Origin: Puniceibacterium sediminis
Lineage (GTDB): Bacteria > Pseudomonadota > Alphaproteobacteria > Rhodobacterales > Rhodobacteraceae
Direction: 5' to 3'
NCBI RefSeq assembly: GCF_900188035.1
Contig: NZ_FZNN01000001.1
Location: 248,001-312,000 of the forward strand
Length of the DNA: 64,000 bases
In this document: positions 22,959 through 46,148 of the stretch, piece after piece
How positions within the stretch are numbered: position 1 is the stretch's first letter
How the letters are laid out: the number at the start of each line of letters is the position of its first letter
Position numbers and translations under genes: made by a program
The notes under the pieces: generated by a model
What the model saw: the letters and a program-made list of their open reading frames with translations, nothing else
Databases searched by the model: none
What the model was told of the DNA's origin: nothing

Positions 22959-23032
22959 GGAATTCTCCGGTCATATCAGGCGCGATCCTAGCCCGGTCGC
23001 CACCTGTGTGAAACCCTGATGACGGAGGTGGC

Positions 23033-24715
23033 ATGGCGCCGGACCTGCAGGTGAAACGACAGTGGCGCAAGGCAACGGCGAGTTGTGGCCGCGGATGGCA
23101 ACTGCTGCGCGAACGCGGTCCCGGTCAGATCCAGTTCTGGTTCATCGCTCTGGCCATCGGAATCGCCGCCGGCACCGCCGCGCTTTTGTTCCGCAAGGCG
23201 ATCGAGACACTGCAAACAGCCCTCTACGGAACCGAAGATGTCAACCTGCTGGCCAGCTTTGCCCAGACGCTGCCGTGGTATTGGGTGCTGCTGATTCCGG
23301 TGGCGGGTGGATTGGTTGTGGGGCTGATCATGCATTTCTTCACACCCGATGGCCGTGTCCGCGCCGTCGCTGACGTGATCGAAGGCGCGGCTCTTTATAA
23401 CGGGCGGGTCGAACGCAAGGCCGGCATCGCATCCATTCTGGCCTCCTGGATCACCCTGTCGACGGGCGGGTCGTCGGGGCGCGAAGGGCCGGTCGTCCAT
23501 ATGGCCGCGATGATGTCGAGCTGGGTCAGCAATCTGATTCACGCCGACGGAATCACCGGACGTGACCTGTTGGGCTGTGCCGTGGCGGCGGCCGTCTCTG
23601 CCTCCTTCAACGCGCCCATTGCCGGGGCGCTCTTCGCGCTCGAAGTCGTGCTGCGCCACTTTGCCCTGCACGCCTTTGCCCCCATCGTCATCGCCTCGGC
23701 CGCAGGGACGGTGATCAACCGGCTGGCCTTCGGCAACGTCACCGAATTCCGCCTGCCCGGCACCACAACGGTCGAATTCTATCTGGAACTGCCGGCCTTT
23801 CTGATACTGGGCCTGGTCTGCGGGCTGGTGGCCGTTGTGACCATGCGCGGCATCTTCTGGGCTGATGACCTTGGCACCCGGCTGCAGCGCGGCCTGAAGA
23901 TGCCGAACCTCTTGCGCCCGGCCACCGCCGGACTGCTGCTTGGCGCGCTGGCAATCTTTTATCCCCATATCATCGGCGTCGGCTATGAAACGACCAGCCG
24001 CGCCCTCACCGGCAACCTGATCCTGCACGAGGCAATCGTCTTCACCGTGATCAAGGTCATCGCCGTGGCGATCACCTTTGCCGGGCGCATGGGCGGCGGG
24101 ATATTTTCGCCCTCTCTGATGATCGGCGCGCTGACGGGAATGGCATTCGGCCTGATCGCCACGGGGCTGTTCCCGGACAATTCCGGCGCCTCGACGCTAT
24201 ATGCCTTGGCCGGCATGGGGGCGGTCGCGGCGGCGGTGCTGGGCGCGCCGATTTCCACCACCCTCATCGTGTTCGAACTGACCGGGGACTGGCAGACCGG
24301 GCTTGCGGTGATGGTGTCGGTCTCGCTGTCGACCAGCCTTGCGGCCCGGCTGGTGGACCGATCCTATTTCCTGACCCAGCTTGAACGCCGCAACATCCAG
24401 CTTGCCGCCGGGCCGCAGTCCTATCTTCTGCGGATGTTCCGGGTCAGCGCCGTCATGCGCAAAAGCGAAGACCTGTCAGAAGAGGACGCCGCGACCTGCG
24501 CCGAGATGATCCAGCAGGCGCTGTTCGTGACCTCATCCTCGACGCTGGCCACCGTTTTGCCGCTGTTTGAACGTACCGGCAATCCATTCCTGCCGGTGGT
24601 TGAACTGCAAGGCACGGACAAGCTGCCGGTGATCCAGGGCGCGCTGTATCATCTGGATGCGCTCAAGGCCTACAACCGCGCACTGGCCGCCACGGCGGCA
24701 GAAGAACACAGCTGA
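23033..24715 (+). CDS. ClC-family chloride channel/transporter
   Basis: Integral membrane ClC protein of 560 residues with about ten hydrophobic segments in the first 430. The central filter motif GSSGREGP is at 146-153 and includes the gating glutamate (E151). GRMGGGIFSPSL matches the third ClC signature. The usual first signature (GSGIPE) is replaced by a DGRVRAVADV stretch. The last 120 residues resemble a degenerate CBS-domain pair and stay in the cytoplasm. A GGAGG site lies just before the ATG. Whether it is a channel or an H+/Cl- exchanger cannot be decided here. Confidence 0.9.
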   Translation: MAPDLQVKRQWRKATASCGRGWQLLRERGPGQIQFWFIALAIGIAAGTAALLFRKAIETLQTALYGTEDVNLLASFAQTLPWYWVLLIPVAGGLVVGLIMHFFTPDGRVRAVADVIEGAALYNGRVERKAGIASILASWITLSTGGSSGREGPVVHMAAMMSSWVSNLIHADGITGRDLLGCAVAAAVSASFNAPIAGALFALEVVLRHFALHAFAPIVIASAAGTVINRLAFGNVTEFRLPGTTTVEFYLELPAFLILGLVCGLVAVVTMRGIFWADDLGTRLQRGLKMPNLLRPATAGLLLGALAIFYPHIIGVGYETTSRALTGNLILHEAIVFTVIKVIAVAITFAGRMGGGIFSPSLMIGALTGMAFGLIATGLFPDNSGASTLYALAGMGAVAAAVLGAPISTTLIVFELTGDWQTGLAVMVSVSLSTSLAARLVDRSYFLTQLERRNIQLAAGPQSYLLRMFRVSAVMRKSEDLSEEDAATCAEMIQQALFVTSSSTLATVLPLFERTGNPFLPVVELQGTDKLPVIQGALYHLDALKAYNRALAATAAEEHS

Positions 24716-24818
24716 GGCGGCGAAATGCAGGTCCGCAATCACCCAAACGCCCGCCGCCCGCAAAAGTGACGGGCCAGCCCAGCTTCAGTTTCAGTCAAGG
24801 ACCGCTTCGAGCCCAAAG

Positions 24819-25151
24819 CTACCGCTTTTCAGCTCCACCTATCGGCTCGTACCAAATCAGAAACTGGTCACCCAGGTCCGCTTGAAGTGTTTTCAGGATG
24901 GCGTTTGCTTCGGTCTCGAACTTATCAAAGTCCTGCTTTGACCAGGGACTGGCTCCACCGGGATTTGTCCAGTCTAAGGCTCCGTCGTGAATTTCTATTA
25001 GCTCGCCCAGTTTTGCCTTTATTTTATTAGATAATGGCAGGGTGCTCTCCAGGTTTGAATAGCCACCAAAGGTGGCTTGAGCCGCCTCATTCATGCCCCA
25101 CAAACAGGGTCCTCCCCATTCAAACATTAGTCGGACTTCGAATTTCGTCAT
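24819..25151 (-). CDS. Unknown small protein, immunity-protein-like
   Basis: A 110-residue acidic cytoplasmic protein from an ATG at 25151 (MTKFEVRLMFEWGGPCLWG); an in-frame TTG at 25163 is also possible. The pattern LPLSNKIKAKLGELIEIHD, then LDWTNPGG and SPWSKQDFDKFE, is reminiscent of small cytosolic immunity-like proteins found near polymorphic toxins, but I cannot name the family. It lies in a patch (about 24780-25510) with clearly lower G+C than the flanking ClC and DUF427 genes, which suggests transfer. No toxin gene is recognised beside it. Confidence 0.55.
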   Translation of the reverse strand: MTKFEVRLMFEWGGPCLWGMNEAAQATFGGYSNLESTLPLSNKIKAKLGELIEIHDGALDWTNPGGASPWSKQDFDKFETEANAILKTLQADLGDQFLIWYEPIGGAEKR

Positions 25152-25192
25152 TGAGAAGATCAAGCCCTCGACCGAAGATTGCTTCGGCGTTG

Positions 25193-25474
25193 CTACAGCT
25201 GAGGCCGCAGTTTTGTCAAAGTCCGCTTCGTCCTCATACTGTTGAAATAGTCCTCCACTGGAAATTCGCGTCTAAATTCCGGAATATTGTTCTTGCTAGC
25301 TGGGCTCTTAAAACCAGTGTTTGCGAAGCGGCCTTTCACAGGAAAAGTGTTCCGCTGATTCCGCAGTTGGCGGTCGCGCACCAACTGTTTCAACAGTATC
25401 TCCGGATAGCGGACTTCAAAAATTCTTGGTGGTGATCTGACCTTCAGAACATCTCGCGGAGATGTATCCGACAT
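25193..25474 (-). CDS. Unknown small basic protein in low-G+C patch
   Basis: A 93-residue frame from an ATG at 25474 (MSDTSPRDVLKVRSPPR), lying 41 bp upstream of the immunity-like gene on the same strand. It is basic, without signal peptide or membrane segment, and I do not recognise a domain. It may be the remnant of a longer gene or the partner of the downstream gene. Lower G+C makes the frame harder to judge by codon bias, so support is weak. The adjoining 25475-25600 holds nothing further that I can identify. Confidence 0.3.
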   Translation of the reverse strand: MSDTSPRDVLKVRSPPRIFEVRYPEILLKQLVRDRQLRNQRNTFPVKGRFANTGFKSPASKNNIPEFRREFPVEDYFNSMRTKRTLTKLRPQL

Positions 25475-25600
25475 ATATTGCCTGCCGAACGCAAAGGCAC
25501 CTCGCAAGCACAGGGCCGATCGCCTTTAGCCCGCCCCCTTGACGCCATAGCGCCGTCTAACCGGGGCGGCCCTTGTCAGAACCCGCCCCAGCCAATGACC

Positions 25601-25945
25601 TCAGACCTGTTCGACCATCACGCCGTCCTGAACGTAAAAGGCGATATAGCCCTTTATGTCCGCCACTTCGGGCTTGGGGTCCTCATAGGACCAGGCGGCG
25701 TCGGTGTAGGTGCGGCTTTTGGACATGATCGAGTAATACGACGCCTCGCCCTTGTGCGGGCAGGTTGTCTTGTGATCGGTGCTGTCCAGCATCGCCATGG
25801 CGATGTCGGCCTTCGGGAAATAGATCACGAACGGCAGATCGCCCTCGGTCAGTTCCAGCGCCTTGTTGCTCTCGCCCAGAACGGCGCCGCCGGCGCGGAC
25901 AACCCATGTGCCCTCGGCGGGCCGGATGGTGATATGTTTCGTCAT
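25601..25945 (-). CDS. DUF427 domain protein
   Basis: A 114-residue protein matching the DUF427 family: the N-terminal ITIRPAEGTWVVRAGGAVLGES, read in parts, is followed by LPFVIYFPKADI, TCPHKGEASYY and a final AFYVQDGVMVE strand. The ATG at 25945 has GGGGAGAG directly upstream, so the longer frame to 25960 is not needed. DUF427 proteins are small beta-rich proteins of unknown function. It precedes pepP by 63 bp of intergenic DNA on the same strand, with pepP located upstream of it. Confidence 0.88.
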   Translation of the reverse strand: MTKHITIRPAEGTWVVRAGGAVLGESNKALELTEGDLPFVIYFPKADIAMAMLDSTDHKTTCPHKGEASYYSIMSKSRTYTDAAWSYEDPKPEVADIKGYIAFYVQDGVMVEQV

Positions 25946-26008
25946 GTCGTCTCTCCCCAAAACTTTGTCTTTGTCTCTTGCCCGTGTAACGGGTTCATGT
26001 CGGATGCG

Positions 26009-27793
26009 TCACAGCGGTTCGGTCGCCGCGATCAGCCAGTCTCTTGCCTCGCACTCGACCAAAGGCTCCAGCCGCGCGCGACAGGTTGCATGATAGGCAT
26101 TCAGCCAATCGGTCTCGGGCCCGGTCAGCATCTCTGTCACGATCAGCCGCCGGTCGATCGGCACATAGGTCAATGTCTCGAAAGACAGCATATCCGGAAC
26201 ACTCGCCCCGGCCAGGGCCGGAGCGCCGGTCACCACAATAAGGTTCTCGATACGGATACCATAGGCACCCTCCCGGTAAAAGCCCGGCTCGTTTGACAGG
26301 ATCATCCCTTGTATCAGCGGCACTGTTCCCGTGCGGGCCAGCCGCTGCGGACCTTCGTGCACACACAGATAGCTGCCCACGCCGTGCCCGGTGCCATGGC
26401 CGTAATCCAGCCCCGCCTCCCACAGCGGCACACGCGCCAGCGCGTCCAGATCGCGCCCGGCCAGCCCCTTGGGCCAGCGCGCCCGGCTGATGGCGATCAT
26501 GCCGCGCAGCACGCGGGTAAAGGCGGCGGCCTCTTCCTCGCCCACATGGCCGACGGCCACGGTGCGGGTGATGTCGGTGGTACCATCGACATACTGCCCG
26601 CCGGAATCCACCAGCAGCAGATGCCCGTCCTCGACCCGCGCATTGGTCTTTTCCGTCACGCGGTAATGCACGATGGCCCCATGTGGGCCAGTACCGCTGA
26701 TCGTCTCGAAACTGATGTCGCGCAGGGCATTGGTGGCGCGCCGCTCTGCCTCCAGGGCGCTTACCACGTCGATCTCGGTCAGGCTGCCCGGCGGCTGGCG
26801 GTCAAGCCAGGCCAGAAACCGCACCATCGCCGCCCCGTCACGCAGATGCGCCGCGCGGGATCCGGCGATCTCGGTCTCGTTCTTGCAGGCCTTGGGAAGG
26901 ACGCAGGGGTCCTGCGCCTCGATCATCTCGATACCGGCCTCGGACAGCGTATCGGCAACAATCACCGGGCAGGTCGCCGGATCAATCGCCACCGGCCCGC
27001 TCAGCGTGGCAAGCACGGCCAGAAAGCTGTCCGGCGATACGACCGACACCCGGGGGCCAAGGTGATCGCCCAGATCGACCAGCTTGGCCTTGTCGATGAA
27101 CAGCGTGACCGTGGCGTCGGCATGCAGCAGGGCAAAGCTATGCGCCACCGGATTGCGCGGAATGTCCGACCCGCGGATATTCAGCAGCCAGGCGATTGAA
27201 TCGGGCAGGGTGATCACCGCCGTATCTGCCCGGCCCAGCCTTGCCGCCAGCCGCGTGATCTTGTCGCCATGCGCCTCACCGGCCAGTTCCGGCGGCTGGA
27301 CAGAGGCCTGGCCGGTGGGTGGTGCCGGCTGATCCTCCCAGATCCGGTCCACAAGGTTTGCGCAACGCTCAAGCGTCACTGTGTCCAGCTTACCCTGTAG
27401 GCTGCGCAGCGGTTCGACCGCATGCAGCCAGGGATCAAACCCGACGCGCCCACCATCCGGCAACGCCTTGGCGATCCACTCGGCCAGCCCCACCTCGGGC
27501 CAGTCGACGGGGGTAAAGACATCGGCCACCTGCGCCTTGACCTGCACCCGGTAGCGGCTGTCGACAAACACACCGGCGCTGTCACGCAGCGCCACGCAAT
27601 ACCCTGCCGATCCGGTGAACCCGGTCAGCCAGGCCAGCCGGTCGTCGCGCGGGGCCACATATTCGCCCTGATGCGCATCAGAGCGCGGCACGATGAACCC
27701 GTCGAGCGTCATAGCCTGCAACGCCTCGCGCAGCGCTGCCAGACGCGCTGGCCCCTGTTCGGGTGATGCGGTTTCCTGAAATGACTGAAACAT
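26009..27793 (-). CDS. pepP: Xaa-Pro aminopeptidase (M24B)
   Basis: A 594-residue cytoplasmic metallopeptidase that removes N-terminal residues before proline. It has the long three-domain form: two creatinase-type N-terminal domains (GFIVPRSDAHQGEY about residue 33, SRYRVQVKAQ) and a C-terminal pita-bread domain. Metal ligands are visible as the two aspartates in LLVDSGGQYVDGTTDITRT, the histidine in GHGTGHGVG, and the glutamates of LSNEPGFY and GIRIENL. The gene symbol is by family; this long form differs from E. coli PepP. It is followed by the DUF427 gene and may be co-transcribed. Confidence 0.93.
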   Translation of the reverse strand: MFQSFQETASPEQGPARLAALREALQAMTLDGFIVPRSDAHQGEYVAPRDDRLAWLTGFTGSAGYCVALRDSAGVFVDSRYRVQVKAQVADVFTPVDWPEVGLAEWIAKALPDGGRVGFDPWLHAVEPLRSLQGKLDTVTLERCANLVDRIWEDQPAPPTGQASVQPPELAGEAHGDKITRLAARLGRADTAVITLPDSIAWLLNIRGSDIPRNPVAHSFALLHADATVTLFIDKAKLVDLGDHLGPRVSVVSPDSFLAVLATLSGPVAIDPATCPVIVADTLSEAGIEMIEAQDPCVLPKACKNETEIAGSRAAHLRDGAAMVRFLAWLDRQPPGSLTEIDVVSALEAERRATNALRDISFETISGTGPHGAIVHYRVTEKTNARVEDGHLLLVDSGGQYVDGTTDITRTVAVGHVGEEEAAAFTRVLRGMIAISRARWPKGLAGRDLDALARVPLWEAGLDYGHGTGHGVGSYLCVHEGPQRLARTGTVPLIQGMILSNEPGFYREGAYGIRIENLIVVTGAPALAGASVPDMLSFETLTYVPIDRRLIVTEMLTGPETDWLNAYHATCRARLEPLVECEARDWLIAATEPL

Positions 27794-27931
27794 GCCTACT
27801 CCTCGTCTTTGCGCGTCAGATTACTGGTTTAGCCAAAGCCCGCCAGTGGAACCTTTGGCTCGCTTCCGCTGCCAAAACGCCAATCGGCCAGACCGAATTT
27901 CCAGATACCGGATCAGAACAGGCAAGCGCCT

Positions 27932-27960
27932 GTTTCATCTGCCCCTGAATTTTCCGGGGC
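27932..27960 (-). repeat. Dispersed intergenic element, copy 2
   Basis: On the - strand it reads GCCCCGGAAAATTCAGGGGC followed by the AGATGAAAC tail, matching the 54.6-kb copies in all but the core. It lies downstream of cobT in cobT orientation and upstream of pepP. The rest of the 27794-28077 gap contains GC-rich inverted stretches (GGGGGCAGCGCCCC near 28005) and no gene. Confidence 0.6.
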
Positions 27961-28047
27961 AGCCGCCCGTCGCGCCATAGTCAGGCCTCTGGCATGATGG
28001 GCGACGGGGGCAGCGCCCCGGATGCGCGGCCCGCATGGCCGCGCCGG

Positions 28048-28070
28048 TCGGATCGGCAAAGCCGATCCGA
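28048..28070 (-). terminator. Hairpin directly downstream of cobT
   Basis: Perfect 10-bp arms TCGGATCGGC (28048-28057) and GCCGATCCGA (28061-28070) around a 3-nt loop, 7 bp after the cobT stop on the - strand. No T tract follows, so it may end transcription inefficiently or protect the 3' end. Confidence 0.5.
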
Positions 28071-28077
28071 AACCAGA

Positions 28078-29955
28078 TCAGGACGCGCGCTTGATTCCCA
28101 TGACCCGGGCCCGTGCCCGTGGGTCGGAATCAAACAGCGATGCCAGCTGCTCGGTCATCGCCCCGGCCAGCTGCTCTACATCGGTGATCGTCACGGCGCG
28201 GTTGTAGTACCGTGTCACATCATGGCCGATGCCGATGGCCAGCAGTTCGACCTGACGCCGCCGCTCGACCATGGCGATCACGTCGCGCAGGTGCTTTTCC
28301 AGATAATTCGCCGGGTTCACCGACAGGGTCGAATCGTCCACCGGCGCACCATCGGAAATCACCATCAGGATCTTGCGCGCCTCGGGCCGGTTCACCATCC
28401 GCCGGTGCGCCCATTCCAGCGCCTCGCCGTCGATGTTTTCCTTCAGCAGGCCCTCTTTCATCATCAGACCCAGGTTCGACCGCGTCCGCCGCCAGGGCGC
28501 ATCGGCCCCCTTGTAGATGATGTGCCGCAGGTCGTTCAGTCGCCCGGGTTGCTGTTCGCGGCCCTCGTTTAGCCACTTTTCACGCGCCATGCCGCCCTTC
28601 CACGCCTTGGTGGTAAAGCCCAGGATCTCGACCTTGACGTTGCACCGCTCCAGCGTGCGCGCCAGCACATCCGCACAGATCGCCGCGATCGAAATCGGCC
28701 GCCCGCGCATGGACCCGGAATTGTCCAGCAGCAGCGTCACCACCGTATCGCGGAACTCGGTGTCCTTTTCGATCTTGAAGGACAGCGGCGTCGTCGGGCT
28801 GACCACCACGCGGGCCAGACGCCCGGCGTCCAGTATCCCTTCCTCAAGGTCGAACTCCCATGACCGGTTCTGCTGCGCCTGAAGACGCCGCTGCAACTTG
28901 TTGGCCAGCCGTGACACCGCGCCCTTCAGCGGTTCAAGCTGCTGATCAAGGTAGGCGCGCAGGCGCTCAAGCTCGACGGGTTCGGCCAGATCCTCGGCCT
29001 TGATCTCTTCGTCATGGGCGCTGTCATAGACGGTGTAATTCGGATCGGCATCGGAAAACGGCTGCGGGGCGGGGGGCTCCATCGGGGCCTCGCCATCGGG
29101 CATCTCGGCCTCGTCGCCCAGCTCCTGATCCGCCAGCTCGTCCATGCTGACCTGAGCTTGCGAACTGTCCTGAGTCTCATCCTGCGACGACTCAGGCGAG
29201 GATTCGGAATCCTCTTCGCCCTCTTCGTCATCGCCGGTGCTATCGGGATCCTGCTCCTCTTCGCCACCGTCTTCGGCCTGATCCTCGGCGGTGTCGTCCA
29301 TGTCGTCCGGGTCATCGCCCAGCTGGTCGCCATACCCGAGGTCCGAAATGATCTGGCGCGCGAACTTGGCGAATTCGCTCTGGTTCGCCAGCTTGTCCTG
29401 CAACGCGTCCAGCGATCCGCCAGCCTGATCCTCGATGAACCCGCGCCACAGATCCATCACGTTCTGCGCCCCCGGCGGCAGATCGCGCCCGGTCGCCAGA
29501 TGGCGGATCAGATAGCCCGCACCAACCGCCAGCGGCACATCTGACGCCTGCTTGACCTGATCATAGCCGCGCCGCGTCGCCTCGTGGGCGATCTTGGTGT
29601 CGATATTCCCGGCCGTTCCCGGCATGTCCCGCGCGCCCATTGCCTCGCAGCGGGCAGTCTCCATCGATTCGTACAGCTCGCGCGCCATGTCACCCGGCGG
29701 GGCGTAACGGCTGTGCGTGCGCGCATCGTGATAGCGGTGATACAAGGCCAGCGCATCCGCCGTGCCACGCGCCAGCAGAACCTCGTCCCGGGTCATGCGG
29801 CGTGACACTTGCGGCAGGCGCATTGAATCGCCGGACACGCCGGACGGGTCGACCGAATAGCTGACCGTCAGGTCGCGGTCGTGCGCCATGACCTTGGTCG
29901 CCTCGGCGAGGGCCTTTTTGAAGGGATCTGCGGGGTTGTCGGATTGCTGAGCCAT
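28078..29955 (-). CDS. cobT: Aerobic cobaltochelatase subunit CobT
   Basis: Subunit of the ATP-dependent cobalt chelatase (CobNST) that inserts cobalt into hydrogenobyrinic acid a,c-diamide in aerobic cobalamin synthesis. From the ATG at 29955 ([20 protein letters not shown]) it is 625 residues. The N-terminal helical part is followed by a highly acidic Asp/Glu-rich stretch (about 200-290) and a C-terminal VWA domain. Its MIDAS motif lies in [13 protein letters not shown]. CobT pairs with the AAA+ subunit CobS encoded 0.9 kb upstream in the same run. CobN, the large subunit, is not in the window. The longer open frame upstream of 29955 has an arginine/proline-rich composition and is not used. 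Confidence 0.95.
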
Positions 29956-30034
29956 ACCCCGACTAATTGGACATCCAACGCTGTTTGACAAGTGCCGATC
30001 TGTCACTGATCCCTGCGGACCCCGGGGGCGGCGT

Positions 30035-30442
30035 TCAGCCCAGCAACAGTGCTTCGCAATGCGCCACGTATTGCGCGGCGGCGCGGGCGGCCTGACGGCG
30101 CAGGCGTTCATCCTGACCAAAGGTGGCGAGGTTGAGCAGACGCGACTGTGCCATCTTCGCCTCGATCCGCCAGTTCAGCAACTCGCGCCCGGTCTGCTCA
30201 GGGCCCGCCGTCGCATCAATCAGGACATCAAACCGGGTGATGGTCACATCCGTCCGCTCCGACGCCGCGCCGTCAAACATCCACTGGAATTCCATCATCG
30301 CCGACATCCGCCCGGCGCAATCGGCAAAGACATATGCCAGATCACGTTTGGCTGCTGGCAGGCCGCTGGCGGGCGCGGATAGCGCGGCGATCCAGATCAA
30401 TGCGGCACACAGGGTGCCCAGAGTGTGGTGCAACTTTGCCAT
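30035..30442 (-). CDS. Small exported protein with terminal cysteine pair (B)
   Basis: A 135-residue protein with a signal peptide (hydrophobic residues about 8-26, ending APASG) and a helical mature part with one cysteine near its start (FADC) and one near its end (VAHC). It resembles the neighbouring 106-residue protein: both share the pattern I-D/E-A-Q/K, then LL, AT, D and RQ, before the final cysteine. The two cysteines may form a disulfide in the periplasm. It lies between that gene and cobT on the same strand, 79 bp before cobT. Not a family I can name. Confidence 0.72.
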
Positions 30443-30540
30443 GCCGGTCAGGATGCGCCCGGAAAACTGGCAAAACGCTTAACCCGGCGCCCGCATCTTT
30501 CTAAAACTGTAAAGAAAGCAGCCGATCAGAACGGCAGGAC

Positions 30541-30861
30541 TCACCCCGCACATAGCTGCATCTGGCGTTCGAAAAGCTGTCTGCTCAGGGGATCATCATC
30601 TTCGACCGTGGCGCGCACCAGCAGGAACATGCCACCCCGCTGCGCATCTATCTGACGATCGGCATCTTTGGGCGACAGCCCGGCGCGGATCGCCATCGCG
30701 CGGTGCCTTGCCGCCTGCCGATCCGCATCACCAATATCGAGATAGGCCGAGACGCGCGCGAAATCCGCGTAGCCCAACCAAAGCGCGGCGCAGGTGACGT
30801 CAGCCTCCTGCGCTGCCGCCGGAGTCGCCCCCAGCAACAGGACCAGCGCGGCCCTTATCAC
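30541..30861 (-). CDS. Small exported protein with terminal cysteine pair (A)
   Basis: A 106-residue protein with a short signal peptide ([18 protein letters not shown], likely cleavage after AAA or AQ). The mature domain of about 88 residues begins [14 protein letters not shown] and ends QLCAG. Its start overlaps the cobS stop by 4 bp (ATGA), so it is translated with cobS. The C-terminal half resembles the next protein (30035-30442), suggesting an old duplication. Why exported proteins lie in a cobaltochelatase operon is unknown; a role in cobalt or corrinoid handling is a guess from position only. Confidence 0.75.
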
Positions 30862-31847
30862 CCGATGCTGAGCGAAGCCGCGCTTTCGGGCAGCTCTTCG
30901 TCAAAGCAGCGCTGATAGAATTCTGCCACTGTCTGACGCTCAAGCTCGTCACATTTGTTGAGGAAGGAGACCCGGAAGGCATAGCCGATGTTGTGGAAAA
31001 TCTCGGCGTTCTGCGCCCAGGCGATCACCGTCCGCGGCGACATCACGGTGGACAGATCCCCGTTCATGAAGGCCGTCCGCGTCAGATCCGCAACCGTCAC
31101 CATCTGGCGCAGGGTCTTGCGGCCCTTGTCAGTGTTGTAGTGCGGGTTCTTGGACAGGACGATCGCCGTTTCGGCATCGATGCTCAGATAGTTCAGCGTC
31201 GCAACCAGCGACCAGCGGTCCATCTGACCCTGGTTGATCTGCTGCGTGCCGTGGTACAGGCCCGTCGTATCCCCCAGGCCGACCGTGTTGGCGGTGGCGA
31301 AGATGCGGAAATACTTGTGCGGTGTCAGCACCTTGTTCTGGTCCAGCAGCGTCAGCTTGCCGTCGGTCTCAAGCACCCGCTGGATCACGAACATCACATC
31401 CGCGCGCCCGGCATCATATTCGTCGAACACGATGGCGCAGGGGTTGCGCAGCGCCCAGGGCAGGATGCCCTCCTGAAACTGGGTGGTCTGCTTGCCATCG
31501 ACCAGCTTGATCGCATCCTTGCCGATCAGGTCGATACGGCTGATGTGCGAATCAAGGTTCACCCGCACCGCAGGCCAGTTCAGCCGCGCCGCCACCTGTT
31601 CGATATGCGTCGATTTACCCGTGCCGTGATAGCCCTGGATCATCACGCGACGGTTGTTGCGGAACCCCGCCAGAATCGCCAGCGTCGTATCGGCGTCGAA
31701 TTTGTAGGTGCTGTCGATGTCGGGCACACGATCTGTCCGGTCGGGAAACCCGTGAACGATCATGTCGGTGTCAATTCCGAAAACCTCGCGAACGTCGATC
31801 TCTTCGGTCGGCTTTGCATTGATGTCGATTGTCGTACCGTCAGCCAT
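30858..31847 (-). CDS. cobS: Aerobic cobaltochelatase AAA+ subunit CobS
   Basis: ATPase subunit of the CobNST cobalt chelatase, forming a ring with CobT. From the ATG at 31847 ([20 protein letters not shown]) it is 329 residues, the usual length. Walker A is GYHGTGKST (72-80), Walker B lies in [14 protein letters not shown], and [20 protein letters not shown] is typical of CobS and related MoxR-type AAA+ proteins. It is the first gene of a - strand run with the two small exported proteins and cobT. The 223 bp upstream to the divergent msrB should carry both promoters. I saw no cobalamin riboswitch there. Confidence 0.96.
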
Positions 31848-32070
31848 GATGAAACCGTCCTTTAGCGTCGCGCAATTGTGTCGTGCCCGTGGTGCAACAT
31901 AACGCGCGAAGGGGCAAGGGGAAGCGCACAAGTTCTGCGTCCGGCGCGGCATGGCTGTCTCTCAATCATGCCCCTGACCACACATTATGGTCGCGTAAAT
32001 GTGCGGCACCCGCTCTTGCTCTGACAGGGGCGGGGCCTGCACAGTCATCCCATCGAAAAGGGAGGATACC

Positions 32071-32535
32071 ATGAACCGACGCCTGTTCCTGACCACCACC
32101 GCCGCCGCCCTCGGGCTGCAAAACGCGCCTGCGATGGCCGCACAGGATTTCGAAATCACCCGCAGCACTGCCGAATGGAAGGCAATGCTGTCGGATCTCG
32201 AATACAAGGTGATGCGCAAGGAAGGCACCGAACGCGCCTTCACCTCGGCACTGAATGACGAAAAGCGCCCCGGGACATTTCACTGCCGCGGCTGTGATCT
32301 GCCGCTTTACGACTCAAATACGAAATTCGACAGCGGCACCGGCTGGCCCAGCTTTTATGCGGCCATCGACGGCGCCGTCGAAAATAAGGCGGATCGTTCT
32401 CTGTTTGGTGTGCGAACCGAAGAACACTGTCGCAGATGCGGATCGCACCTTGGCCACGTCTTTGACGACGGCCCGCCCCCGACAGGCAAACGTCACTGCA
32501 TCAACGGTGTGAGCCTGGTGTTCAAACCCGCCTGA
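32071..32535 (+). CDS. msrB: Peptide-methionine (R)-S-oxide reductase MsrB, exported
   Basis: Reduces methionine-R-sulfoxide in proteins. From the ATG at 32071, with GGAGG 5 bp upstream, it is 154 residues. The N-terminus is a Tat-like signal (MNRRLFLTTTAAALGL, then AMAAQ), so the enzyme probably works in the periplasm. The MsrB domain has zinc cysteines C72/C75 (HCRGC) and C120/C123 (HCRRC), and the catalytic cysteine C143 in RHCINGVSLVF. It diverges from cobS. An extended frame upstream of 32071 is not needed because of the good ribosome-binding site. Confidence 0.94.
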   Translation: MNRRLFLTTTAAALGLQNAPAMAAQDFEITRSTAEWKAMLSDLEYKVMRKEGTERAFTSALNDEKRPGTFHCRGCDLPLYDSNTKFDSGTGWPSFYAAIDGAVENKADRSLFGVRTEEHCRRCGSHLGHVFDDGPPPTGKRHCINGVSLVFKPA

Positions 32536-32646
32536 TCCCCCGGCGGCGTCTCAAACAGTATCCAGCTGCCGGGCGGTTTGGGGCGGCCGCAGGCTGCGAC
32601 CCAACAGCCCAGGCAGCGCCCGGTCTTCACCACCCGGCCATCCAGA

Positions 32647-33270
32647 TCACTTGAAGTTCCGGCTGTCCTTGATCTGATCCCAGGCCCAGACGACCTCTTG
32701 CAGCTGCTCTTCCTGCGACCGGTCGCCGCCGTTGATATCCGGGTGCAGCACCTTGATCAGCCCCTTGTAGGCCTTGCGCACCTCGGCCTTGGTCCAGTGA
32801 TCCTTGCACTCAAGGATCTCGATCGCGCGGCGTTCGGTCGGGGGCAGGCGGCGGGTACCGGTGATCGATTTGCCCGGATTGCGCGTCGCATTGTCGCCCA
32901 GCACCTGATGCGGGTCCTCGATGCCCAGCCGCGACCAGGCCAGCTGCTCGGTGTCGCGGAAATCCTTGGTCTTGCGCTCCCAGACCTTGTCCGATGTGGC
33001 CTGGGCGTTCATCTCGGCCTCGGTCTTGCCGTGGAAGAAGTTCCACTTGAGGTTGTACTCGCGGACATGGTCCTTGCAGAACCAGAAAAAGTCGTCCAGC
33101 ACATCCGGGGCCTTGGGCGCACGGAACTTGCCCGGCTCCTCACAGCCCTCGTGCTCGCACAGCCTCACAGAGGTCGTGCTCTCACCGGACATGCCGCGGC
33201 GCCCGCGTGGATTTTTCTTTTTCGAAGACGACACTGACATGTCGAAACCGAATGGATCTGATTTGCTCAT
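32647..33270 (-). CDS. J-domain protein with N-terminal zinc-like motif
   Basis: A 207-residue protein with a C-terminal J domain: helix II, the HPD tripeptide in LIKVLHPDINGGD, and helix III (EEQLQEVVWAWDQIK). The N-terminal half has a cysteine/histidine cluster (LCEHEGCEEPGKF, then FWFCKDH) that could bind zinc. The protein probably recruits DnaK to a specific client. Its position beside bolA and cobS/cobT is a neighbourhood I recall from Rhodobacterales and Rhizobiales. It diverges from bolA over 74 bp and converges on msrB. Confidence 0.9.
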   Translation of the reverse strand: MSKSDPFGFDMSVSSSKKKNPRGRRGMSGESTTSVRLCEHEGCEEPGKFRAPKAPDVLDDFFWFCKDHVREYNLKWNFFHGKTEAEMNAQATSDKVWERKTKDFRDTEQLAWSRLGIEDPHQVLGDNATRNPGKSITGTRRLPPTERRAIEILECKDHWTKAEVRKAYKGLIKVLHPDINGGDRSQEEQLQEVVWAWDQIKDSRNFK

Positions 33271-33344
33271 GGGAACACCTTTTCGACTCGGACGCCAAAC
33301 TCTAGACTATCCACCGACAGATGACAGAGGTTGAACGCTAAAAA

Positions 33345-33602
33345 ATGACCAGAACTCAGGAAATCGAGACGCGTCTGCGCAAAGCATTCGATCCAAGTGA
33401 ACTGATTGTGCGCGATGACAGCGAAAGCCACCGGGGCCATTCTGGGTTTCAGGAGGGCGGCGAAAGCCATTTTCATGTGGTGATCCGCAGCCCTGCTTTT
33501 CAAGGTCAGTCGCGTATCAGTAACCACCGCGCCGTCCACAGCGCCCTCGGCGCCGACCTCATGGGCCGCATCCACGCCCTGTCTCTGGATCTCGGGGCCT
33601 GA
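33345..33602 (+). CDS. BolA family protein
   Basis: An 85-residue BolA-like protein, a class II KH-type fold that works with monothiol glutaredoxins in iron-sulfur cluster trafficking or as a transcription regulator. Family features are the N-terminal helix ETRLRKAFDPSEL, the SESHRGH segment, the FHVVIRSPAFQG strand with its conserved histidine, and the RAVHSAL helix. It has no CGFS-type cysteine motif. A weak AGAGG lies about 15 bp before the ATG. No glutaredoxin gene is in the window. Confidence 0.92.
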   Translation: MTRTQEIETRLRKAFDPSELIVRDDSESHRGHSGFQEGGESHFHVVIRSPAFQGQSRISNHRAVHSALGADLMGRIHALSLDLGA

Positions 33603-33863
33603 TTCCATCTACCTAAGGTTGTGGTTTTTTATTTAACGCACGTAATGTGTGCGTGGCGGTGGCAATTCCGGCCATTCACCGGGCGGATTCGGTATTTCAC
33701 GTACCATTCGCAGTGCGCCAATTGAAATCAAAATGACTAACACGCTTAAGTGGAGTTGGGCAGGCGGTATTGCTTGCGGGAGGAGAGCCCGGGTCGAGTC
33801 TGCATGTGTCCTTCGGGCCATGAGCAGGCGCGTTCCGCCTTGAACTCGAAAGGTACACCTAAA

Positions 33864-34067
33864 ATGAAGCTCCTGTTCCCGGCCACTCTGGCCGCCCTCA
33901 CACTTGTGCTCGCACCGCCGGTTATGGCCGATGAGGTCCTGCCGGATCTTGGTGGACTCAGCAGCGGCTCGCCAAATCCGGGACTGTCATTTCTATCGAC
34001 CCTGGCATCAAGCACCAGTTCGACAACAAGCACGACATCAACAAGTGCGACCTCAACCACACGGTGA
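33864..34067 (+). CDS. Small exported Ser/Thr-rich protein
   Basis: A 67-residue frame from an ATG at 33864: signal peptide MKLLFPATLAALTLVLAPP with likely cleavage after VMA, a short linker (DEVLPDLGGLSSG), and a tail made almost only of serine and threonine, ending in TTR. No domain is recognised. Upstream, 33603-33863 holds a small inverted repeat (ACGCAC/GTGCGT near 33636) and no convincing gene. The signal peptide and the AAAGG site make the frame plausible, but it could be a decayed or truncated gene. Confidence 0.45.
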   Translation: MKLLFPATLAALTLVLAPPVMADEVLPDLGGLSSGSPNPGLSFLSTLASSTSSTTSTTSTSATSTTR

Positions 34068-34092
34068 TTAACGGCTGTTCATGTCTCTACGT

Positions 34093-34108
34093 CCGCCCTG
34101 CGGGGCGG
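34093..34108 (+). terminator. GC hairpin after the Ser/Thr-rich ORF
   Basis: CCGCCC (34093-34098) and GGGCGG (34103-34108) pair over a 4-nt loop, 25 bp after the stop of the small exported protein. No T tract, so a terminator role is tentative. Confidence 0.35.
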
Positions 34109-34190
34109 GCGCGCAAGGAACGGATGACGCAGCAAATTCCGCAAGGGCCGACCTGCTCACGCTGATCGCCGCCTCTGATCATGGCACGGC

Positions 34191-34256
34191 GCCATACGCC
34201 AGCCATACGGTTGCCATACGCAAACCATACGCCTTCCATACGCCTTCCATACGCCG
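34191..34256 (-). repeat. Six-copy 11-bp phased CGTATGG array
   Basis: Six consecutive 11-bp units, each containing CCATACG on the + strand (CGTATGG on the - strand), at 34191, 34202, 34213, 34224, 34235 and 34246. The heptamer is invariant, while the other four positions vary. It lies 14 bp beyond the gatB stop, so on the gatB transcript it would be read as CGTATGG repeats. A second array with the same heptamer and spacing is at 48164-48214. Spacing close to one helical turn would put all units on one face of the DNA. Confidence 0.85.
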
Positions 34257-34269
34257 ATTTTGCCGGTTT

Positions 34270-35784
34270 TTACAGGCCCAGCTTCGCCGCTACGATGGCG
34301 TTCACCGCCGCCGGGTTGGCCTTGCCGCCGGTGGATTTCATCACCTGACCAACAAACCAGCCCGCCAGTTTCGGATTCTGTTTCGCCTTTTCGACCTGCG
34401 CCGGATTGGCCGCGATGACCTCATCCACTGCGGTTTCGATCGCGCCGGTGTCAGTTACTTGAAGAAGGCCTTTTTCTTTAACGATATCCGCGGGATCGCC
34501 GCCGTCGTTAAACACGATTTCGAACACATCCTTGGCGATTTTGCCGTTGATATCGCCCGATTTGATCAGCGTGATCAGCCCGGCCAGCTGTTTTGGCGTC
34601 ACCGGGGACTCGGAAATGTCCCGATCGTCCTTTTTCAGGCGCCCGAAAAGCTCATTTATGACCCAGTTCGCCGACAGTTTTCCGTCTGAACAAAGGCCGA
34701 CAACCTCTTCGAAGTAAACGGCATTTGCCGTGTCGGCGGTCAGGACAGAAGCATCATATTCCGACAGGCCGAAATCCTTGACGAACCGGGCCTTCTTGGC
34801 GTCAGGCAGTTCCGGAAGCGAGGCCGCGATCGCATCGACCCACTCCTGCTCGATTTCCAGCGGCAGCAGATCAGGATCGGGGAAGTACCTGTAATCATGG
34901 GCTTCTTCCTTCGAACGCATCGACCGCGTCTCGCCCTTGTCTGGATCGTATAGCCGGGTCTCCTGATCGATTTTACCACCGGACTCAAGGATCGCGATCT
35001 GGCGTTTTGCCTCGTAATCAATGGCTTGCTGGATGAACCTCATGGAGTTCATGTTCTTGATTTCGCAGCGCGTGCCAAGATCGCCAAAATCCTGGGACGC
35101 CTGATATTTTTCATATTGCCCGGGACGGCAAACCGAAACGTTCACATCCGCCCGCAAACTGCCGCTCTGCATGTTGCCATCACAGGTGCCAAGGTACCTA
35201 AGTATCTGACGCAGCTTGACAACATAGGCCGCGGCCTCTTCGGGTCCACGGATGTCGGGGCGGCTGACAATCTCCATCAGCGCCACACCGGTCCGGTTGA
35301 GGTCGACGAAGGACATGTTCGGGTCCATGTCGTGGATCGATTTCCCGGCGTCCTGCTCGATATGGATCCGTTCGATCCGCACCAGTCGTGCAATGCCCGG
35401 CTCCATGTCCACCAGCACTTCGCCCTCGCCCACGATGGGGTGGTAAAGCTGGCTGATCTGATAGCCCTGCGGCAGGTCAGGGTAGAAGTAGTTCTTGCGG
35501 TCGAATGCACTGAAAAGGTTGATCTTTGCCTTCAGGCCCAGCCCCGTGCGCACCGCTTGTTCGACGCAGAATTCGTTGATCACCGGCAGCATGCCTGGCA
35601 TGGCCGCATCCACAAAGGAGACGTTGGAGTTCGGCTCCGCGCCGAATTTGGTCGACGCACCCGAGAACAGCTTGGCCTGCGTCGCGATCTGGGCATGGAC
35701 CTCCATCCCGATCACCAGTTCCCAGTCGTGCTTGGCCCCGGCGATAACCTTGGGCTTGGGGGAGTCGTAGCTCAGATCCAGCAT
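34270..35784 (-). CDS. gatB: Asp-tRNA(Asn)/Glu-tRNA(Gln) amidotransferase subunit B
   Basis: Subunit of GatCAB, which amidates mischarged Glu-tRNA(Gln) (and Asp-tRNA(Asn)). From the ATG at 35784 ([20 protein letters not shown]) it is 504 residues. Hallmarks are [30 protein letters not shown], the [17 protein letters not shown] motif and the C-terminal YqeY-like domain ([17 protein letters not shown]). GAGGA 9 bp upstream supports this start over upstream frames. gatA and gatC are not adjacent here. Just past the stop lies the phased CGTATGG array. Confidence 0.96.
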
Positions 35785-41971: not shown

Positions 41972-42169
41972 ATGTCTGCACCCGATACAAACACGACAAC
42001 CGAAGAAAAGCGGCACAAACCTTCGATTCTGGGAATGAAGGCGGTGCTGATCTTTGTCGCCATTCTATTGGTTGGCTGGCTTGTCTGGACAGTGAGCGCC
42101 GCCGACGCTCCAGACGGCGCAAAGGCGCAGATCGACGGGCGCACCGGCGAAGAGGTTCAGACGGAATAG
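41972..42169 (+). CDS. Small single-pass membrane protein
   Basis: A 65-residue protein: a polar Thr/Lys-rich N-terminus (MSAPDTNTTTEEKRHKPS), one membrane helix (about residues 23-43), and a short acidic tail ending EEVQTE. GGAAAGG lies about 10 bp before the ATG. I do not recognise a family. It is divergent from pepN and stands alone, with a terminator-like hairpin 100 bp downstream. Confidence 0.65.
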   Translation: MSAPDTNTTTEEKRHKPSILGMKAVLIFVAILLVGWLVWTVSAADAPDGAKAQIDGRTGEEVQTE

Positions 42170-42600
42170 CCTTTCGGTGACATGGTTGGTCGTTCTGACA
42201 TAGGCCACGTTTCTGTTGGAATTTCGCGCACCGGCGTGCAGCTGATTCATTCTATTTTCTAACCAGATAACTGACGGTCTGATTGTACATCGGGCCGTCA
42301 GTTTTCGTTTCTGTGATGTCCGCTTTCAGTACGGACATACATCATGCCAGTCACCGAAGCCGGTGAAATCTCTGCACAGAAGCGATACATCATTCTTTGT
42401 CTGGCGCAGTGGCGAGCACGGGTCCGGGATGGATTCCCCGGTTGTGAGGATCGTTGTCGCAATTTGCGAAGGCAGGCGGCAGAATGGCGGAATGAGCACT
42501 TTGAACCGCTTCTGATCAGCTTCGCCTGTTGCCTATCGGAAACTCTTTTTCTAATGATGCACACAATTGCATACCGAACAAATCCTAGGGGGAGGCCGAC
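42170..42600 (+). other. 431-bp gap upstream of glcB
   Basis: Contains the terminator at 42269-42305, then AT-richer DNA up to glcB. An open frame at 42344-42604 lacks a ribosome-binding site and is not supported. ATGCA-CACAAT-TGCAT (42557-42572), a perfect short inverted repeat 28 bp before the start codon, may be an operator for a regulator of glyoxylate metabolism. GGGGGAGG (about 42589-42595) is the ribosome-binding site of glcB. Confidence 0.45.
42269..42305 (+). terminator. Intrinsic terminator-like hairpin
   Basis: Arms AACTGACGG (42269-42277) and CCGTCAGTT (42295-42303) are perfect. The stem can extend inward by two pairs, one a wobble, and the descending arm ends in TTTT. It probably terminates the transcript of the 65-residue membrane protein gene. 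Confidence 0.7.
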
Positions 42601-44754
42601 ATGACAACACGTATCACCCGATCCGATCTTCAGATCGACGAAATCCTGTATTCCTTCATCGAAGAAAAGGCATTGCCGGGCACCAATGTGTCTGCGGACA
42701 TATTCTGGCAGGGGTTGTCGGATCTGATCCACGATTTCGGGCCTCGCAACCGTGCCTTGCTGGAAACGCGCGCCAAACTGCAAACCCAGATCGACGGCTG
42801 GCACATCAAGCGGCGCAACCAGCCGCATGATCACGAAGCCTACAAGGCCTTCCTGGCCGAGATCGGTTACCTTCTGCCCGAGGGTGATGACTTCGAGATC
42901 GACACCGCAAACGTTGACCCCGAGATCGCCACCGTGCCGGGGCCGCAGCTGGTCGTGCCGATCACCAACGCGCGCTATGCCCTGAACGCCGCGAATGCCC
43001 GCTGGGGCAGCCTGTATGATGGTTTTTACGGCACGGACGCCATGGGCACACCAGCGCCCAAGGGCGGCTATGACAAGGGCCGTGGTGCGCGGGTCGTGGC
43101 GCGGGCGCGGGTTTTCCTGGACGAGGCATTCCCGATTGATGGCGGCAGCCACGCGGATGCGCGCCGCTATCACATTCACAACGGCGCCCTGCTGGTGGAT
43201 GACATGCCGCTGGTCGATCCGTCGAAATTTGTGGGCTACAAGGGGCACCCCCGTGCACCCGAAGCGGTGGTGCTGCGCAACAACGCACTGCACGTTGAAC
43301 TGGTGTTTGACCGCACCCACCGGATCGGCAGCCGGGATCAGGCCGGTCTGGCTGACGTCCAGATGGAAAGCGCGATTTCCGCCATCATGGACTGCGAAGA
43401 TTCCGTCGCCTGCGTCGATGGTGAAGACAAGACACAGGCCTATGCCAACTGGCTGGGCTTGATGAAGGGCGATCTGGAAGAGACCTTCGAGAAGGGCGGC
43501 GAGAGCCTGACCCGTGCGCTGAACGCGGACCGGGTCTATACCGCGCCGGACGGTGGCAAGGTGGCCCTGAAGGGGCGCGCGCTGATGCTGATCCGCAATG
43601 TGGGTCATCTGATGACGAACCCCGCGATCCTTGACCGTGACGGCCACGAAGTGTTCGAAGGTCTGATGGATGCAATGATCACCGCGGTGATCGCCAAGCA
43701 CGACCTTGCCCGCGTGGGCGGCAATTCGGTCACCGGATCGGTCTATGTGGTCAAGCCCAAGATGCACGGCCCCGAAGAGGTCGCCTTTGCCGACGAGACC
43801 TTCAGCTTTGTCGAAAAGGTTCTGGGCATGCCGCAGAACACCGTCAAGCTGGGCATCATGGACGAAGAACGGCGCACCTCGGTGAACCTCAAGCAATGTA
43901 TCCGGGCGGCGAAATCGCGCGTGGCCTTTATCAACACCGGGTTCCTTGACCGGACCGGGGACGAGATCCACACCTCGATGGAGGCCGGTCCGTTCAGCCG
44001 CAAGGATTTCATCAAGCGCAAGGCCTGGATCGGCGGGTATGAAAACCGCAATGTCGATATCGGTCTGGAGTGCGGATTGTCCGGCAAGGCCCAGATCGGC
44101 AAAGGCATGTGGGCGATGCCCGACATGATGGCCGCGATGCTTGAACAGAAGATCGAGCATCCCAAGGCCGGCGCCAACTGCGCCTGGGTGCCGTCGCCCA
44201 CCGCCGCCACGCTGCACGCGCTGCATTATCACAAGATCGACGTATTCGCCGTGCAGGCACGTCTGCGCAAGGGCGGGCGGCGTGCGCATGTGGACACCAT
44301 CCTCGACATCCCGCTGGCGGCGTTCCAGAAATGGTCCGAAGATCAGGTTCTGCGCGAGGTCGAGAACAACGCACAGGGTATTCTGGGCTATGTTGTGCGC
44401 TGGATCGATCAGGGCGTAGGCTGTTCCAAGGTGCCGGACATCAACAATGTGGGCTTGATGGAGGATCGCGCGACCTGCCGGATTTCAGCGCAGCACATCG
44501 CCAACTGGCTGCACCACGATGTGGTGAGCGAGGCCACGGTGATGGAAGTCATGCGCAAGATGGCCGTGGTCGTGGACGGTCAGAATGCCGGGGATCCGGC
44601 CTATCGCCCGATGGCACCGGACTTTGGCAGCATCGCGTTTCAGGCGGCCTGTGATCTGGTGTTTCGCGGGCGCGTGCAGCCTTCGGGCTATACCGAGCCG
44701 GTGCTTCATGCCCGCAGATTGCAGCTCAAGGCCGCCTCACAGAAGGCTTCGTGA
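42601..44754 (+). CDS. glcB: Malate synthase G
   Basis: Condenses glyoxylate with acetyl-CoA to malate in the cytoplasm. The 717-residue length is diagnostic for the monomeric G form (the A form is about 530). The sequence has [29 protein letters not shown] near residues 120-148, read in parts, [32 protein letters not shown] and [19 protein letters not shown]. The C-terminal region includes [27 protein letters not shown], also read in parts. It is followed by a GlcG-like gene, echoing the glc locus of E. coli, but no glcDEF genes are adjacent. Confidence 0.97.
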
Positions 44755-44763
44755 CAAGGGGAT

Positions 44764-44784
44764 GAGGGGGCTGTCGGCCCCCTC
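44764..44784 (+). terminator. GC-rich hairpin after glcB
   Basis: Perfect 8-bp arms GAGGGGGC (44764-44771) and GCCCCCTC (44777-44784) over a 5-nt loop, 9 bp after the glcB stop. No T tract follows, so it may only partly separate glcB from the GlcG-like gene 51 bp downstream. Confidence 0.45.
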
Positions 44785-44835
44785 GGGTACCTTCAGGCGC
44801 GCATGGAAAGAGAAGAAACAGGGATTGGAGACGAT

Positions 44836-45264
44836 ATGGCCGGGATTTCACTGAGACGGGCGCGGACGATCATTCGCAAGGCGCTGGAGCATGGCAAAGC
44901 CGCGGGGATGAACCCGCTGACGGCCATCGTGCTGGATGCGGGCGGGCATGTGATCGCGTTCGAGCGTGAAGACGGCGCGAGCCCGGGGCGGTTCCAGATC
45001 GCGCAGGGCAAGGCCTATGGATCCATCATGCTGGGCATGGCGGGCACGGCGCAGATGAAGCGTGCCGAGGCGCAGGCCTATTTCATCGCCGCTGCCGGGG
45101 CGGCCTATGGCGGGCAGATGATCCCGGTGCCGGGCGGTGTTCTGGTACGTGATGCCAAGGGGGCCGTGATCGGCGCAGTGGGGGTCACCGGTGATTCGTC
45201 GGAAAATGATGCAGCCGCCGCAAAAGCGGGCATTGAATCCGTGGGTTTGAGCGCCGAAATCTGA
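44836..45264 (+). CDS. GlcG/HbpS-like (DUF336) protein
   Basis: A 142-residue protein of the GlcG/HbpS (PF03928) family. Landmarks are the N-terminal SLRRARTIIRKALEHG helix, LTAIVLDAGGHVIAFEREDGAS, and the C-terminal VPGGVLVRDAKGAVIGAVGVTG with the SSENDAAAAKAGI helix. Some members bind haem or cob(I)alamin-like cofactors; others sit in glycolate operons without known function. The ATG at 44836 has GGAG 7 bp upstream; a longer start at 44803 lacks this. Position after malate synthase suggests a link to glyoxylate/glycolate use. Confidence 0.86.
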   Translation: MAGISLRRARTIIRKALEHGKAAGMNPLTAIVLDAGGHVIAFEREDGASPGRFQIAQGKAYGSIMLGMAGTAQMKRAEAQAYFIAAAGAAYGGQMIPVPGGVLVRDAKGAVIGAVGVTGDSSENDAAAAKAGIESVGLSAEI

Positions 45265-45331
45265 GCCGCTCTTTTCCATTCCTTCAGGGTAGCTTATGTA
45301 ATGTGCATTCGACTATCCTGAAGGGGGCACC

Positions 45332-46108
45332 ATGACCCGTCCGATCGTTGGCATCATCGGCAACCAGCATCTGTTGAACGACCAGTATCCGGCCCATGCC
45401 GGCGGCTCGATGAACTCCGAGGCGGTGGCCTGTGTGGCGGATTGTGTGCCGCTGCTGATTCCCGCCGATCCGCGGTTCATGTCGGTCGATGAACTGCTTG
45501 AGGCCTGCGATGGGTTCGTTCTGACCGGCGGACGGCCCAATGTGCATCCCGAAGAATACGGCGAAGAGGCGACCGAGGCGCATGGTGCCTTTGATCGCGC
45601 CCGCGATGCCATCGTGTTGCCGCTGGTGCGCGCCTGTGTCGAGCGGGGACAGCCCTTTCTGGGCATCTGCCGCGGCTTTCAGGAGGTGAACGTGGCCATG
45701 GGCGGTTCGCTTTACCCTGAAATCCGGGACCTGCCGGGGCGGATTAACCACCGGATGCCCCCCGACGGCACGCTGGAAGAGAAATTTGCCCTGCGCCATG
45801 TGGTGACTTTCACCGAAGGGGGGCCGTTTTCCCGCCTGATGGGGTCGCAGGAGGTCATGACCAACACGCTGCACGGGCAGGGGATCAAGCGCCCCGGCGC
45901 GCGGGTTGTGGTGGATGGCCATGCCCCCGACGGCACGCCAGAAGCCACCTATATCGAGGGCGCGACGGGTTTTACCCTGTCGGTTCAATGGCATCCGGAA
46001 TGGGATGCGGCGAACGATCCCGTCTCGCGCCCGCTGTTTACGGCCTTTGGGGATGCTGCGCGGGATTGGGTGGCGGCCAAGGCGTTTCCGGGTCGGAAAT
46101 CGGCCTGA
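45332..46108 (+). CDS. Class I glutamine amidotransferase-like hydrolase (PuuD/C26 type)
   Basis: A 258-residue peptidase C26-family protein related to gamma-glutamyl-gamma-aminobutyrate hydrolase PuuD. The nucleophile elbow GICRG has C113. The rest of the catalytic triad is in VQWHPEW (H221, E223). The N-terminal strand GIIGNQHLLNDQYP and the GFVLTGGRPNVHPEEY segment also fit. Such enzymes release GABA or other amines from gamma-glutamyl conjugates in polyamine breakdown. No other puu genes are adjacent, so the substrate is open. It converges on kynU. Confidence 0.86.
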   Translation: MTRPIVGIIGNQHLLNDQYPAHAGGSMNSEAVACVADCVPLLIPADPRFMSVDELLEACDGFVLTGGRPNVHPEEYGEEATEAHGAFDRARDAIVLPLVRACVERGQPFLGICRGFQEVNVAMGGSLYPEIRDLPGRINHRMPPDGTLEEKFALRHVVTFTEGGPFSRLMGSQEVMTNTLHGQGIKRPGARVVVDGHAPDGTPEATYIEGATGFTLSVQWHPEWDAANDPVSRPLFTAFGDAARDWVAAKAFPGRKSA

Positions 46109-46148
46109 GCCGACACCGGGTTCCTGCCGGGCTGGTGTGACCGACCGC

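Follow-up and report, generated by a model that had tools for sequence, protein, structure and literature searches.

Conserved, polar CCATACG arrays predict one-way GC-skew domains in Puniceibacterium sediminis and other Rhodobacterales

Introduction

What is a run of six CCATACG heptamers, set at a constant helical phase beside gatB, doing on the chromosome of Puniceibacterium sediminis? A first-pass annotation of the window (the whole 64-kb stretch of DNA analysed here) read it as a sign of selection for one face of the DNA, as for a cooperatively bound protein. That reading is supported by the strict 11-bp phase, by the constraint on the heptamer and by the composition of the spacers, although binding itself is inferred. 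The even spacing of such arrays and their link to strand composition, described below, go beyond what was noticed at that stage. GC skew in bacteria is normally taken as a single signal running from oriC to ter. Rhodobacterales show GC-skew peaks of unknown cause (PMC9836097). No earlier report of CCATACG arrays was found in the open-access literature.

Results

Two arrays in the window

Array 1 (Table 1) has the six heptamers in exact 11-bp register that were first described, separated by the spacers CCAG, GTTG, CAAA, CCTT and CCTT. It adjoins gatB as claimed, lying 3' of the gene; the distance from the last heptamer to the stop codon is 16 bp and not 14 bp. An array is found 3' of gatB in P. 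antarcticum as well. The recurrence reported at 48164 is indeed a second 11-bp array, with four exact units, while the unit at 48164 itself, at the low-coordinate end, is a deviant one. With up to two mismatches allowed, the window holds 10 heptamer-pair matches against a mean of 0.36 in shuffled windows. Gene calls were made with a simple caller of our own, so gene contexts are approximate throughout. A 105-residue open reading frame convergent with gatB (33750-34067, + strand) has a signal-peptide-like start and a Ser/Thr-rich tail; it has no Pfam match.

Table 1. Features of the window (window coordinates).
Feature	Position	Strand	Remarks
Array 1	34192-34253	+	six exact CCATACG; starts 34192, 34203, 34214, 34225, 34236, 34247
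3' tail of array 1	34254-34260	+	CCGATTT
gatB	34270-35784	-	PF02934, PF02637; stop codon at 34270
Short-chain dehydrogenase gene	47339-48115	-	predicted start ~50 bp from array 2
Array 2	48164-48214	-	five units: CCATACG at 48208, 48197, 48186, 48175; CCATACC at 48164
pntA-like transhydrogenase gene	48539-50113	+	flanks array 2 on the opposite side, at 324 bp
Array 1 skew domain	18000-35300	-	G>C along CGTATGG strand; contig C45 266-284 kb; limits approximate
Array 2 skew domain	42000-60000	+	positive GC skew along CGTATGG strand; limits approximate

A dispersed set of polar arrays

Both window arrays are members of a dispersed set of 60. The P. sediminis genome (4.64 Mb in 69 contigs) contains 166 exact CCATACG-N4-CCATACG pairs, 83 on each strand, and no match to the reversed-pattern control. 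The 60 fetched arrays, located on 19 of the 69 contigs, hold all of these pairs, so that no exact pair of the genome seems to lie outside them. The first-pass annotation had proposed a genome scan and would have been refuted by finding only the two window loci without conservation; 60 loci, conserved in many Rhodobacterales genera, contradict that outcome. Among the properties that it wished to see checked, intergenic position (58 of 60) and conservation (22 of 28 orthologous, see below) hold; the pairs are split equally between the strands. The 50 contigs without an exact pair amount to about 1.1 Mb, roughly a quarter of the genome, and may be extrachromosomal replicons; a search for repABC markers gave no match anywhere, its controls being equally without match.

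The usual array has four to six units, the outer ones being degenerate (CCATACC, CCATATG, CCAGACG). The arrays are polar, because AG precedes the first exact heptamer in ~90% of them and a CCGTTTT-like tail often follows the last one (many P. sediminis arrays). Spacers take 43 distinct forms among 221, yet they are constrained: the third base is A or T in 97%, in roughly equal shares, and the first is C or G in 88%, a composition as for minor-groove contact in double-stranded DNA, so far as base preferences alone can indicate. Different arrays have no more than a few bases of flank in common. Like plasmid iterons and the 11-bp repeats of ParR/parC, the arrays are direct repeats in helical phase with four to six units; unlike these, they are chromosomal and dispersed, with no adjacent rep or par gene.

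The architecture is closest to the boxes of the OmpR/PhoB family (the Pho box of PhoB, the PhoP box), which likewise have a 7-bp core and a 4-bp spacer and run head-to-tail at 11 bp; the likeness is architectural only. PhoP of Mycobacterium tuberculosis recognises 7-bp direct repeats whose spacer is strictly 4 bp, and its oligomers can cover three and four consecutive repeats (PMC4832192). Successive same-strand heptamers no more than 40 bp apart meet this geometry in 166 of 176 cases in P. sediminis (the others are at 12 bp, three cases, and 22 bp, seven cases) and in 223 of 223 in other genomes.

Conservation and taxonomic spread

The arrays are retained at orthologous positions. After duplicate loci are taken once, P. 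antarcticum SM1211 has 28 arrays, of which 22 lie 0-29 bp from the projected position of a P. sediminis array, all in the same orientation. Between the orthologous arrays of the two species the heptamers are 94.1% identical, the spacers 63.6% and the flanks 79.3%; the heptamers look to be under selection, as far as a comparison of sequences can tell. The first-pass statement that only the heptamer is invariant while the other four positions drift is thereby borne out, with the reservation on spacers made above. Its argument against simple slippage also stands, as spacers turn over while heptamers stay, contrary to what slippage would do.

The same comparison bears on the possibility that the arrays are a REP-like, MITE-like or slippage-made repeat without function. 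They are short, dispersed, intergenic and repeated, and patchy among genera, as such a repeat would be. A functionless repeat would not be expected to keep its heptamers better than its flanks while its many different spacers turn over, to hold orthologous positions, or to be over-dispersed along the chromosome with so little common flank, and we regard this explanation as barely tenable. REP/BIME and MITE elements were rejected as candidates on the same grounds of spacers that differ among copies and little common flank, and since only direct repeats occur. CRISPR was rejected too: a CRISPR has repeats of about 20-50 bp and unique spacers roughly as long, against a 7-bp repeat and a 4-bp spacer here. 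The first-pass annotation had seen no resemblance to CRISPR or REP either.

Spaced pairs occur in 22 of 397 genomes of the family, in some only once. Large array sets are found in scattered Rhodobacterales genera, among them Pseudooctadecabacter jejudonensis (G165), Marinosulfonomonas, Maritimibacter, Amylibacter and Pararhodobacter. Three genomes of the same genus (G002-G004) have no arrays, degenerate ones included, and no other tandem heptamer family with a period of 7-24 was found in stretches of G002 and G003. Three-unit arrays are also present on contigs (L148, L165 and L169) binned as Gemmatimonadetes, Balneolales and delta proteobacterium metagenome-assembled genomes, which are probably misbinned Rhodobacterales contigs; on L165 the orientation of the array and the skew have the same sign. 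BLAST against phages and plasmids gave no similar array. Two-unit matches are many among the IMG/VR matches listed, and three exact units occur in seven IMG/VR contigs (L379, L390, L401, L432, L462, L463 and L478), which may be of host origin or belong to phages that infect array-bearing hosts.

Genomic placement and spacing

Nearly all arrays are intergenic, in a genome with a coding density of 84%. Gene contexts of the 56 classified arrays are near background (36 co-directional, 11 convergent, 9 divergent); many arrays are within 150 bp of a gene start, and 13 are directed against a pair of co-directional genes, near a 3' end. The 23 sampled proteins encoded beside or near arrays are functionally unrelated and include gatB, transhydrogenase, MipZ, ArgG, RadC, ScpB, TGT and transporters. 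A search for a protein gene recurring next to arrays across genera found none.

These data do not sit well with the arrays being operators of a global transcription factor of OmpR/PhoB type, each regulating a neighbouring gene. The box-like architecture, the intergenic position and the proximity of many arrays to gene starts would all suit an operator. The arrays are however not tied to promoters, the 11 between convergent genes and the 13 near a 3' end being poorly placed for regulation; the neighbours are unrelated housekeeping genes and therefore a regulon is unlikely, so that the second mark of an OmpR/PhoB-type box, presence in the promoters of a coherent regulon, is not met. Sixty evenly spaced sites linked to strand composition would be unexpected for a regulon, and no binding protein is known. 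We consider the operator reading improbable.

The arrays are over-dispersed along the chromosome: among 41 gaps the shortest measures 11.6 kb, and none falls below 11 kb where 8.4 are expected; the arrays of P. jejudonensis are likewise over-dispersed (P 0.0002 on the coefficient of variation). A chromosome-wide, fairly even distribution with a core that is kept while adjacent bases drift recalls the uptake sequences of Haemophilus (USS) and Neisseria (DUS). Uptake sequences are short single sites, present in hundreds to thousands of copies per genome at about one every 1 kb, and 60 multi-unit arrays do not match this; unlike them, the arrays recur about every 50 kb and go with polar skew domains. 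In one genome (G069, which has dnaA at 1 kb of the main contig) a 1.4-Mb stretch (C1:652000-2031000) is free of arrays of three units with up to three mismatches, the rest of the chromosome being array-bearing.

Arrays mark the start and direction of skew domains

At 56 of 58 arrays in P. sediminis and at 19 of 20 in P. antarcticum, the local GC skew over 12 kb has the sign opposite to that of the CCATACG strand. In other genera the same holds at 49 of 53 arrays where the skew is at least 0.02. All arrays fit this rule on contig C45 (12/12), to which the window belongs, and in Pseudooctadecabacter (7/7). The skew changes sign at, or close to, arrays whose orientation differs from that of the preceding one, often in an abrupt jump (452 kb of C45; 400 kb of P. 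jejudonensis). The window itself is an example: skew on the + strand is negative from ~20 to 36 kb, flips to positive just to the right of array 1 and is still positive beyond array 2. The left edge of the array 2 domain is ~5 kb before the array and less sharp than average.

Read along CGTATGG, the mean skew rises in a step ~1 kb ahead of the array, keeps a level of about 0.1 for several kb and then declines across 20-40 kb; the decay kernel is gone by 40 kb in C45 and reaches somewhat further in Pseudooctadecabacter. The step stays at about -1 kb whether the first upstream gene is long or short. Some skew is present upstream of arrays too, and the downstream excess is 0.043 in P. sediminis (Wilcoxon p 8e-7), with p 0.003 in P. 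antarcticum and p 0.03 in other genera. On the CGTATGG strand T exceeds A as G exceeds C. Transcription was rejected as the source of the skew, since the bias is carried by intergenic DNA and by third codon positions of genes in both orientations. A conserved, polar and evenly dispersed element thus predicts a one-way skew domain.

A polar motif whose G-rich strand coincides with the locally G-rich strand could be one that guides replication in line with the main forks, as KOPS/AIMS or Chi do; these too are short polar motifs with a strand preference. The count of 56/58 at first suited such an alignment, which was dropped because the skew reverses together with the arrays at many points of a contig. 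Array orientation changes every few tens of kb, repeatedly within single contigs of 450 to 830 kb, and so ignores the main forks. In G069 the arrays at 14-221 kb point one way and those at 472-652 kb the other, both groups being on one side of dnaA. Orientation therefore fails to track replication from oriC to ter, as KOPS/AIMS would, and KOPS and Chi are dense single sites, unlike 60 arrays. A role in guiding the main forks is highly improbable.

Does the array cause the skew?

Causation by the arrays is unproven. The data are correlative, the array itself is C-rich, and arrays could be kept where a prior strand bias suits them. On such a passive account, domains of strand bias pre-exist and a C-rich array is gained, or kept, on the C-rich strand, as composition alone would make likelier; the skew peaks without known cause reported for Rhodobacterales (PMC9836097) would supply the domains. 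Single heptamers outside arrays have little bias or none, with a weak trend in C45 (13/19) and no trend in Pseudooctadecabacter (15/28). Nor does a passive account lead one to expect an asymmetric profile with its step ~1 kb before the array and decay downstream of it, or sign flips that fall where the arrays are.

Comparison with array-less relatives points the same way. At identical aligned bases, downstream skew is 0.084 in P. sediminis and 0.019 in the relatives, whereas upstream skew is 0.065 and 0.047, respectively; skew is weaker in the array-less G003, though it varies along the chromosome in the array-less G002 too. We hold passive orientation to be unlikely. Inversion was ruled out as a source of the flips in the window, because the segment with both arrays is collinear with G002, a comparison limited to this one site. 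Among exchanges, C-to-G is raised 1.66-fold and C-to-T 1.30-fold; as the asymmetry is strongest for C/G and not confined to C-to-T, simple deamination of an exposed single strand is not the whole story.

Regression on its own is weak evidence. R2 is 0.488 for C45 and 0.447 for the Pseudooctadecabacter stretch, but with so few arrays per stretch random placement or random signs give mean R2 values of 0.15 to 0.3; the observed value is equalled in C45 by the best random set of signs and can be exceeded in Pseudooctadecabacter by both kinds of null. The number of exact units does not correlate with the strength of the skew.

Discussion

A model with many one-way starts

We propose that the arrays serve one sequence-specific protein as polar binding platforms dispersed over the chromosome, and that each array sets where a one-way DNA process starts and which way it runs, a model to which we give an even chance; binding and process are inferred, and no protein has been identified. 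In this model a single sequence-specific DNA-binding protein would occupy the head-to-tail heptamer sites of an array. The process would begin ~1 kb upstream, cross the array and continue for 20-40 kb along the CGTATGG strand, which it would enrich in G over C and in T over A. What can be read directly from the data is a compositional trace that starts ~1 kb upstream of the array and points along the CGTATGG strand; that a process starts there is inference.

What the process might be is less certain. Tentatively, the chromosome of certain Rhodobacterales would have ~60 polar start sites, tens of kb apart, at which DNA is opened, copied or exchanged one way, either as starts of directional transfer or recombination or as many unidirectional secondary replication starts. 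The start of a strand-specific transfer or recombination tract is a possibility, if a doubtful one; were such tracts to start at arrays, even spacing would follow from drive, as has been argued for uptake sequences (PMC7811141). Secondary replication that starts in one direction only, or fork restart, is doubtful to a similar degree, and we see the two readings as about equally likely. Ordinary extra forks alone are less likely, because the array effect (~0.1) exceeds the constant term (0.034) in C45, though this too is an inference.

Transfer has a particular form in this family, the gene transfer agent (GTA), and the arrays could be its pac-like packaging starts, with exchanged tracts running one way from each. 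DNA packaged by the Dinoroseobacter GTA has several peaks, which suggests that packaging starts at discrete sites (review PMC11841831); a one-way process that decays over tens of kb, that is over several headfuls, would resemble the skew profile, and start sites that propagate themselves become evenly spaced, on the argument made for uptake sequences (PMC7811141). Dependence on GTA genes has not been found, however, and no GTA site of this kind is known. The GTA marker domain is present in 349 of 397 family genomes, yet an array-bearing genome (G115, six pairs) has no GTA_TIM match, so a GTA is not required in the genome unless its loss, which is not excluded, was recent. A GTA-type terminase occurs in all members of the genus, array-bearing and array-less, and the small terminases of GTAs are without a specific DNA-binding domain (PMC6854486). 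The space where a GTA small terminase would lie, examined by a crude listing of open reading frames, gave no support. Packaging starts are a very improbable explanation.

Returning to the polar binding platforms, their interest is that a short, conserved and dispersed element predicts the start and direction of skew at a scale of 20-40 kb in several genera. If the element drives the skew, an activity in these bacteria processes DNA in one direction from many fixed starting points, and some of the unexplained GC-skew peaks of Rhodobacterales have a possible cause. Among the array-bearing species, P. jejudonensis and P. antarcticum are culturable. To our knowledge, no such activity has been described in any bacterium.

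Arrays as RNA

As RNA the arrays have no match in Rfam. Their folds are near those of shuffled sequences for the CCATACG strands (z -0.1 and -1.2) and modestly better for the CGTATGG strands (z -2.2 and -1.6). The transcript of the CGTATGG strand (window 34182-34275, - strand, z -2.2) folds slightly better than its shuffles because CGUAUG can pair with itself through two G-U pairs.
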